Under the pieces are notes generated by a model. It was not told the origin of the DNA. It saw only the letters and a list, made by a program, of their open reading frames with translations, and made no database searches. This document shows, piece after piece, positions 24,740 to 26,503 of a stretch of 28,281 nt of DNA. Origin of the DNA: a virus; IMG/VR virus record IMGVR_UViG_3300025168_000480, positions 1 through 28,281 of that record; one strand, given 5' to 3'. Made by a program: the position numbers and the translations under genes. Each line of letters starts with the position of its first letter. The first letter of the stretch is position 1.

Positions 24740-25153
24740 CTATGTAATAGTTATTGTTTTAGGTTTAGCTTCTTCTGCAAGTGGTGCAGATAAATGAAGT
24801 AACCCATTTTCTAGTTTTGCTTTCAACTGACCTAAGTCAAATCTTCTGCTAATTCTCCATCCAAAGTTAAATGCTCGTTTAGCAATATTCCTTTGAATGT
24901 ATTCATTCTCGTTAGAGCTTGAATCCTTCTTGTATTCTACTCGAAGTACATCCCCCTCAATAGTGAGTTCAATGTCTTTGTTTGTTAAACCTACGCACGC
25001 AATATCAATATTGAGCCCTTCTTCGGCCTCATATATGTCTACTGGATGGTTTAGTTTGGATGCATCTGCAAATTGATAATCTACATCTGTCTTGAAATAG
25101 TCCTTAAATAGGACGTCGAATGGCGATGTGCCGAATGGTGTTAAATTTCCCAT
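24740..25153 (-). CDS. hsp20: Small heat-shock protein Hsp20 (alpha-crystallin domain)
   Basis: The 137-aa product has an N-terminal arm, then an alpha-crystallin domain starting at VDIYEAEEGLNIDIACVGL and continuing LTIEGDVLRVEYKKDS. The conserved late motif ENGLLHLSAP is followed by a short tail ending ITIT, the I-x-I/V dimer contact. Hsp20 oligomers hold unfolding proteins without ATP. Phage copies are typical of marine T4-like genomes and may help scaffold or assemble virions. It has the clearest ribosome site in the window (AAGGAG, 8 nt from ATG) and a leader of about 90 nt with a hairpin and a copy of the 12-mer promoter-like motif. Confidence 0.93.
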   Translation of the reverse strand: MGNLTPFGTSPFDVLFKDYFKTDVDYQFADASKLNHPVDIYEAEEGLNIDIACVGLTNKDIELTIEGDVLRVEYKKDSSSNENEYIQRNIAKRAFNFGWRISRRFDLGQLKAKLENGLLHLSAPLAEEAKPKTITIT

Positions 25154-25270: not shown

Positions 25271-25999
25271 CTAAGGCGTAGAAAATATATATGTGTATAT
25301 AATACGTCCATTAGCATTTTGTTTTTTTCGATAATCTCGAAGTATACTGCCATGTCGTACCATATGGGTTTTAGCTTTTTTTAATCTAGTTTCATCTGTA
25401 CAGCTAATACATAATAACCCGTTAATAGAGGTTGCACGTACAAGGTCATCATCTATACTGTCATAAACTTCTTGCAGTAAATCAGTCACCTGATCTTCAG
25501 ACATCATACTCGGTTCAGAACGAAACTCTTTAGGCATTAATCTACGTTTACTCATTATACGAGTCATATAAAAATCTACATCTTCTACATTGAGTGATGT
25601 AAACCAATTACTAAACTGACGAAGATTATTATTAAAGAGTTCATCTCTATCATCTTCATGAATTATATCCCACACCATTGATATAATAATACGATTAGAT
25701 TCGTCTATAGCTTTAACATATGCTCGTTGCTTATCAACTGGTAATTTATCAAACCATAGTTGAAACCCTTCTTGATATTTAGCTACTGAAGATGAAGTCC
25801 AAGATCCACTCATATCAACCTCATTAAAAAACTCTTTACGAACATCGGGACTACGAGAGTATGATGAAGGGGTAGATATATCATCATTTGTAGAGTATCG
25901 ATTCATAGCTGTATCCTCGCGAGGTGACCCCCACATTTCAAGCTTATACAGCTTACCGTTACATTTTAACTCTTTAGATACCATTGGTCTACTAATCAT
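25271..25999 (-). CDS. Unrecognised 242-aa protein directly downstream of the tmRNA
   Basis: This soluble protein begins MISRPMVSKELKCNGK and has a Ser/Thr-rich, probably disordered stretch (about 30-70). A helical acidic core follows with several Trp (WTSSSVAKYQEGFQLWFDKL, later VWDIIHEDDRDELF). The C-terminal half is mixed (LLCISCTDETRLKKAKTHMV) with a final strand RIIYTYIFSTP. No catalytic motif is visible. It starts about 20 nt after the tmRNA inverted-repeat arm. ACCTT-TAT-AAGGT forms a small hairpin that includes its AAGG ribosome site, so translation may be modulated. A link to tmRNA function is possible only by proximity. Confidence 0.55.
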   Translation of the reverse strand: MISRPMVSKELKCNGKLYKLEMWGSPREDTAMNRYSTNDDISTPSSYSRSPDVRKEFFNEVDMSGSWTSSSVAKYQEGFQLWFDKLPVDKQRAYVKAIDESNRIIISMVWDIIHEDDRDELFNNNLRQFSNWFTSLNVEDVDFYMTRIMSKRRLMPKEFRSEPSMMSEDQVTDLLQEVYDSIDDDLVRATSINGLLCISCTDETRLKKAKTHMVRHGSILRDYRKKQNANGRIIYTYIFSTP

Positions 26000-26017: not shown

Positions 26018-26194
26018 TCCACCTCCACCGGGCTTATACGACTTGCCCTGTTAATGCCGTTCGGTTCTGGGTGCTTTATTAAGCAGCCATTGCCATTTCA
26101 ACTTGTGCGCCAGTTATGCGTGACCTTCCTTAAATCCTTATCTCTCTGTCAAAGCCAGTCACCCCCATGATGTAAATTATTTAGTGGAGGTGGA
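26018..26194. repeat. 11-nt inverted repeat flanking the coding half of the tmRNA
   Basis: TCCACCTCCAC (26018-26028) is the exact reverse complement of GTGGAGGTGGA (26184-26194). The latter covers the tmRNA acceptor 3' strand, discriminator and one T-stem base pair end. The two arms could pair in the precursor RNA and compete with the true acceptor stem. Confidence 0.7.
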
Positions 26195-26240
26195 GGGTTT
26201 CGAACCCTCGTCCAAAAGAGCAGCTAATAAAAGTACTAGC
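26030..26240 (-). ncRNA. ssrA: Circularly permuted (two-piece) tmRNA, ssrA
   Basis: The acceptor half is encoded first. It has a 7-bp hairpin (26240-26223), then a T arm (26209-26193: GAGGG, loop TTCGAAA, CCCTC), then CACCTCC (26192-26186) and discriminator A (26185). CCA is not encoded (CTA). A 15-nt spacer precedes GGGGGTG (26166-26160), which pairs with CACCTCC in all seven positions with a G3-U70 wobble, the alanine identity element. TGGCTTTGACAG matches the tmRNA D-loop region, and AGAGAG can pair with CTCTTT as helix P2. The tag frame lies at 26111-26079 with its stops in the loop of a TGCTT/AAGCA hairpin, as in bacterial helix P5; a GGGC/GCCC hairpin ends the gene. tmRNA with SmpB rescues stalled ribosomes and tags products for proteolysis. 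PK1 was not resolved and outer ends are approximate. Permuted tmRNA is known from alphaproteobacteria, cyanobacteria and some betaproteobacteria. Confidence 0.86.
26079..26111 (-). other. tmRNA tag reading frame
   Basis: After TAACT, the usual context of a resume site, the frame reads GAQVEMAMAA and then two TAA stops. If the resume codon is GCA instead of GGC, the tag is AQVEMAMAA. The MAA end resembles the LAA/VAA degrons recognised by ClpXP-type proteases. The coding-frame boundary of one codon is the main uncertainty. Confidence 0.75.
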
Positions 26241-26242
26241 GG

Positions 26243-26503
26243 TCAATTCATTGTTTGTTTTATCTTAATTAATTCTGCACACTTCTCATACTCTTCACGA
26301 TCGGCGTGCTGAAAATATTCTATTACTTCGTTTATGGTAGACACCCTTCCTGGTTGTTTAAGCATCCAGGTACCTGATGGTAAATCTTGTATATCTATTT
26401 CACTGATCAAATACTCGTAAGTATTGTTCATTGCAGCTTCAAGTAGCTCTAGATCTTCATCTGAATCACCAAATGTTTCTATAGGTTCATTAAATCCATC
26501 CAT
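26243..26503 (-). CDS. Unrecognised 86-aa acidic protein with a UVR-like C-terminal helix pair
   Basis: The N-terminal third is acidic (FGDSDEDLELLEAAMNNTYE). A middle SGTWMLKQPG segment precedes a helical end (VIEYFQHADREEYEKCAELI) resembling the UVR-type helix pair seen in UvrB/UvrC and McsA proteins, which mediates protein contacts. This resemblance is weak. The start lies one base after a possible 17-codon upstream frame (TGACATG), and the end touches the start of the tmRNA gene, so the tmRNA may be processed from the same transcript. Confidence 0.5.
   Translation of the reverse strand: MDGFNEPIETFGDSDEDLELLEAAMNNTYEYLISEIDIQDLPSGTWMLKQPGRVSTINEVIEYFQHADREEYEKCAELIKIKQTMN

Follow-up and report, generated by a model that had tools for sequence, protein, structure and literature searches.

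The window analysed here is a virus record of 28,281 bases from IMG/VR (IMGVR_UViG_3300025168_000480), and its minus strand carries, at about 26244-26019, a gene for a circularly permuted (two-piece) transfer-messenger RNA (tmRNA), consisting of an acceptor piece, a spacer and a coding piece. The gene is located between two open reading frames (ORFs) on the same strand, one of 86 amino acids (26243-26503) and one of 242 amino acids (25271-25999). The first bases of the acceptor piece overlap the TGA stop codon of the upstream ORF (26245-26243), and the downstream ORF starts about 20 bases past a G-rich tail at the end of the coding piece. A preliminary description of this DNA had proposed a phage-borne, permuted two-piece tmRNA among phage genes, with the acceptor/T-arm half ahead of the 5' half, at 26030-26240. 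A baseplate wedge protein is encoded in the window, in agreement with the phage neighbourhood. The identity of the RNA is borne out by a covariance model, comparative covariation and a conserved tag, and the order of its halves by the sequence, the minus-strand model match and the same order in relatives. The locus was also correctly placed, but the mature pieces reach slightly beyond the interval, and the spacer from A73 to G1 measures 18 nucleotides (nt) instead of 15. The proposed ends at 26166 and 26185 are consistent with the helices.

Concerning detection, the sole Rfam match at gathering level in the whole window was RF04321 (tmRNA_permuted), at 26079-26234 on the minus strand (69.5 bits, cut-off 47, E 1.2e-11). 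The match spans model positions 1-213, that is, the full length. Among the older permuted models the beta_tmRNA model (RF01850) performed best, but its 44.3 bits fell short of the cut-off of 84. The window gene resembles the betaproteobacterial form in its tRNA-like part and GGGGGUG/CACCUCC acceptor stem, but matches only positions 62-182 of that model. ARAGORN reported no tmRNA over the window, though it detected many of the relatives. Of the checks that had been suggested for the locus, those with the beta model and ARAGORN were negative; RF04321 was positive. The predicted mature pieces are about 60 nt and 137-148 nt, and their features are listed in Table 1.

Table 1. Features of the two-piece tmRNA gene, in window coordinates
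Feature	Position	Strand	Details and basis
Acceptor (3') piece	26185..26244	-	Sequence, RF04321, covariation
Acceptor-piece strands of P2a-c	P2c 26244-26241; P2b 26233-26227; P2a 26220-26216	-	P2c strand GACC; covariation
T arm	26209-26193	-	Sequence, covariation
Acceptor 3' strand	26192-26186	-	CACCUCC; 7 base pairs with GGGGGUG 26166-26160, including G3-U70
Discriminator A	26185	-	CCA not encoded; sequence reads A-CUA
Spacer	26167..26184	-	18 nt, A73 to G1; would be removed in maturation
Coding (5') piece from G1	26019..26166	-	3' end at or beyond the pseudoknot end (26030), possibly at the end of the G-rich tail (26019)
5' acceptor strand	26160..26166	-	GGGGGUG; G3-U70; position 5-68 G-C in the window, A-U or C-G in relatives
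D-loop region without D stem	26147..26159	-	ACUGGCUUUGACA; sequence, RF04321, alignment
Coding-piece strands of P2a-c	26122..26146	-	P2a 26146-26142; P2b 26135-26129; P2c 26125-26122
AUAACU just 5' of resume codon	26112..26117	-	A at -4 (26115) in the place of E. coli A86
Hairpin around resume codon	26100..26115	-	AACU (26115-26112)/AGUU (26103-26100)
Tag reading frame GGC...GCU	26082..26111	-	GAQVEMAMAA; resume codon GGC
Two stop codons	26076..26081	-	UAA UAA; sequence
Stop-codon hairpin (helix 5-like)	26072..26085	-	UGCUU/AAGCA; direct reading, fold
Post-tag H-type pseudoknot	26030..26060	-	S1: ACGGC 26060-26056 with GUCGU 26042-26038
Pseudoknot S2	26048-26045; 26033-26030	-	GGGC with GCCC; covariation
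G-rich tail	26019..26029	-	GGUGGAGGUGG; 3' of pseudoknot

The gene belongs to a family. Scans of viral contigs returned the acceptor/spacer/5' pattern in 111 contigs, some of them carrying other kinds of permuted tmRNA, and the tag pattern in 68. RF04321 exceeded its cut-off in 22 of 50 viral records related by neighbouring proteins. We collected and aligned 66 distinct family sequences from marine viral contigs, which score about 54-71 bits with RF04321. A scan of this kind for the same gene order had been proposed at the outset, and about 65 distinct relatives keep it. Their spacers are 16-22 nt in most cases and about 69-90 nt in some.

The helices were then evaluated in this alignment. Distinct strand combinations were counted, and the partners were shuffled among sequences 1000 times; the shuffles are uncorrected for relatedness, and many different compensations are hard to obtain otherwise. 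The T stem was paired in 100% of distinct combinations against 79% after shuffling (0/1000), P2a in 97% against 70% (0/1000), P2b in 98% against 86% (0/1000) and P2c in 93% against 77% (2/1000). P2c occurs as GGUC/GACC, GAUC/GAUC, GUUC/GAAC and GACU/AGUC. Together with P2b it links the coding piece with the 5' extension of the acceptor piece. The acceptor stem is 100% paired among the family, with variants too few for the shuffle to decide, and G3-U70 is invariant (60/60 sequences analysed).

The tag is nearly fixed in the family, with the consensus G(E/A)(Q/H/T)VE(M/L)AMAA ending in a hydrophobic residue and Ala-Ala. We observed GEQVEMAMAA, GEHVEMAMAA, GEQVELAMAA, GAQVEMAMAA (the window), GETVEMAMAA and a few others, and synonymous codon changes at A7, A9 and A10. 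An alternative tag frame (GCGAAC..., AN--like) was rejected, as it has no stop codon in place. Position -4 relative to the resume codon (position 138 of the alignment) is an A in all family members. We liken this A, on the basis of previous studies (PMC2481249, PMC4236655), to A86, which chiefly sets the frame in E. coli tmRNA (PMC2481249). The hairpin around the resume codon appears in relatives as AACA/UGUU or AAUC/GAUU, with one A-A exception; only four distinct combinations occur, and covariation lends this hairpin moderate support. It matches the position of 'helix m' in one-piece tmRNAs, which has been described as weakly supported (PMC1168896). A CGC/GCG pairing that would turn it into a pseudoknot hardly varies, and is hence unsupported.

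Little room for pseudoknots after the tag had been expected, but covariation supports one there. All four pairs of its S2 stem are Watson-Crick in 30 of 31 distinct relatives, against a mean of 8.8 and a maximum of 17 after shuffling, while S1 is mostly paired with little variation (89% against 84%, 18/1000). In most family members a GGNGG-type tail (GGAGG or GGTGG) follows. In the window, as in the family members closest to it, this G-rich tail could pair with the acceptor 3' strand, of which GGUGGAGGUGG is a near-perfect complement. We do not claim GGUGGAGGUGG as an anti-acceptor element of an alternative regulatory fold, the tail showing no covariation with acceptor changes in relatives. 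The tail also resembles a Shine-Dalgarno sequence, but in the window the following start codon is too far away.

It is before the tag that space is missing. Pseudoknot 1 (PK1) upstream of the tag is typical of tmRNA, though not universal. The distance from the D-loop to the resume codon is only 35-41 nt in the family, of which P2a-c take up all but about 10 nt, and PK1 therefore seems to be absent. The same interval is 63-67 nt in alphaproteobacterial two-piece tmRNAs mapped by ARAGORN, 58 nt in phage Mosig and 64 nt in the own tmRNA of a Pelagibacter metagenome-assembled genome (MAG). Most other permuted tmRNAs of viral contigs gave 58-89 nt, some of these values being unreliable as the motif anchor can be misplaced; another short case is L105 (36 nt). 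In E. coli, tagging is not lost when unrelated sequence, a hairpin or a single strand takes the place of PK1 (PMC2481249, PMC4236655), and its absence is thus no argument against function but the mark of a variant. A more specific proposal, which we put forward tentatively and consider rather doubtful, is that this is a phage-specialised minimal two-piece tmRNA that dropped PK1, in which the extended inter-piece helix and the resume hairpin would set the resume site and the fixed AMAA tag would steer products differently from the host tag.

Taken together, we consider it highly probable that this marine phage locus represents a functional two-piece tmRNA of a myovirus-like phage. Several points weigh against this. 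There is no room for PK1, ARAGORN missed the window copy, and the 69.5 bits are well under the approximately 110-165 bits of most alphaproteobacterial matches. The window copy of P2b contains two U-U mismatches, and in the minimum-energy fold predicted for the precursor the acceptor strand is bound to the G-rich tail and the tRNA-like fold is not formed. In addition, 28 of the 50 related records are without an RF04321 match, though all are fragments.

The analysis establishes structure, conservation, tag and phage context; from the anatomy and the known pathway we infer transcription, processing, charging, SmpB use and phage benefit as follows. The gene, located between two phage ORFs, would be transcribed from the minus strand as one precursor. 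Host RNase P would cut at G1 (26166), and a 3' end nuclease and the CCA-adding enzyme would act at A73 (26185), with loss of the 18-nt spacer; CCA addition is proposed because CCA is not encoded. According to the published view (PMC3985003), RNase P and tRNase Z process two-piece tmRNAs. Pairing in the acceptor stem and in the long P2a/P2b/P2c helix would hold the two pieces together, and host alanyl-tRNA synthetase would charge the RNA with alanine via G3-U70. The charged RNA would bind SmpB, enter stalled ribosomes and restart translation at GGC. By appending Ala and GAQVEMAMAA it would free the ribosomes for reuse and make the tagged product open to degradation. A search of 26 phage records (including contigs of 170,801 and 155,892 bases, Mosig and Mel-JY01) turned up no SmpB gene, and host SmpB would therefore be used. 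During infection the RNA thus probably rescues ribosomes in concert with three host components, namely SmpB, alanyl-tRNA synthetase and RNase P. As candidate benefits we consider whether ribosomes would be recycled, amino acids recovered or host proteolysis redirected.

An RNA with these features could also act as a decoy, inhibiting or titrating host trans-translation in a charged or SmpB-binding form. A precedent has been reported in the tag-less tmRNA-like RNA of mycobacteriophage DS6A (PMC11915505). The present family has no space left for PK1, and its best-energy precursor fold hides the acceptor strand. A decoy, however, needs no conserved reading frame, and here the tag frame, the A at -4, the stop codon and the stop hairpin are conserved and the tag changes are synonymous. 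As PK1 is also dispensable or replaceable in E. coli, we regard a decoy as unlikely.

The covariance-model score, low relative to bacterial tmRNAs, and the absence of the gene from many related fragments would fit a non-functional phage copy of a host gene, either degenerate or recently captured. On the other hand, four or more helices with compensatory changes among about 60 phage sequences, along with a near-invariant tag, show that purifying selection acts inside the phage lineage, and this explanation appears very improbable. We give practically no credence to a tRNA-like or terminator-like element other than tmRNA. The acceptor/T-arm half does resemble tRNA 3' halves and shows weak matches to several tRNA and tmRNA genes, but the RF04321 match is full-length, the tag and both pieces are conserved, and no intrinsic terminator was found.

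A two-piece tmRNA gene in a phage is not new in itself. The preliminary description was uncertain how well phage-encoded permuted tmRNAs are documented; the gene type it recognized is already on record, 53 of 133 unique phage tmRNA structures having been classed as two-piece, 50 of the 53 in marine or aquatic samples (PMC9004378). What distinguishes the present family is its tag, the lack of room for PK1 and the long inter-piece helix. The closest counterparts are the SsrA of Pelagibacter phage Mosig EXVC030M (MT647606.1) and that of methylophage Melnitz, likewise phage-borne permuted two-piece tmRNAs of marine T4-like phages. Mosig also has no SmpB gene that could be found and a tag beginning with Gly (GEDNFALAA), but this tag is different, CCA is encoded and the interval before the resume codon is longer, as given above. 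A glutamine riboswitch has been reported with the Melnitz ssrA (PMC9004378), whereas the Rfam search of the window revealed no riboswitch. The alphaproteobacterial form (RF01849, merged in RF04321; Caulobacter type) shares the acceptor piece-spacer-coding piece order, the tRNA-like domain and a P2 joining the pieces. It differs from the window family in score, in the interval before the tag and in its mostly ANDN... tags, compared with G..VE.AMAA. The DS6A RNA is a phage-borne tmRNA homologue as well, but lacks the tag frame that is conserved here. Among named phages only distant protein relatives were found, Microcystis phage Mel-JY01 and Flavobacterium phage immuto; Mel-JY01 gave no RF04321 match, and blastn of the tmRNA against named phages returned no close relative, only short matches covering at most 15% of the query. 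The results add a widespread, distinct phage two-piece tmRNA family that ARAGORN and older Rfam models can miss or under-score. They also supply an alignment of natural sequences whose covariation reveals the inter-piece helix and the post-tag pseudoknot and, less strongly, the resume-codon helix. If active, the RNA would be a natural PK1-less tmRNA showing directly what a minimal two-piece tmRNA requires, and it bears on the reason why phages carry a ribosome-rescue RNA without SmpB.

In the surroundings of the gene, an Hsp20/alpha-crystallin family gene is present near the tmRNA at 24740-25153 on the minus strand (Pfam PF00011, E 7e-11), and cyanophage S-H38 has an annotated distant homologue. 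Directly upstream of the acceptor piece, many relatives carry the motif ATATTTATA, possibly a phage promoter, which is also found upstream of some window ORFs (25246 and 16799, both on the minus strand). The motif is absent upstream of the window's own tmRNA, which may be co-transcribed.

Some relatives (L127, 8241-8728, minus strand; L219, 276-763, minus strand; L170, 9912-10399, plus strand) have tags of 37 amino acids, GTQIKSVKAGIFASLAAIRLLATETVATEESVYAMAA and GTQIKSVKAGTFAALAAIRLLATEEVVVEENVLAMAA, which end in AMAA and are followed by a normal stop hairpin and a terminator-like hairpin; ARAGORN assigns a wrong tag in these cases. The most frequent tmRNA tag length published is 10 amino acids. 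The only match in the bacterial collection was this long-tag form, on a 6.4-kb contig (G057 contig 10, L219) in the Pelagibacter MAG. As an ordinary tmRNA is present elsewhere in this MAG, on a different contig, the 6.4-kb contig is probably viral or mis-binned, and we did not take Pelagibacter as the host on its account. ARAGORN also predicted long tags (at least 26 amino acids; for example ANDDSFDFAALSFTGNTVGGRVALAA) in unrelated permuted tmRNAs of viral contigs (L111, L113, L133, L159, L107 and L092). Two relatives contain complete tRNA genes inside the tmRNA spacer, tRNA-Glu (TTC) in L213 (1597-1669) and tRNA-Ala (TGC) in L224 (3674-3748), and a precursor with such a nested tRNA would yield the tRNA together with both tmRNA pieces.
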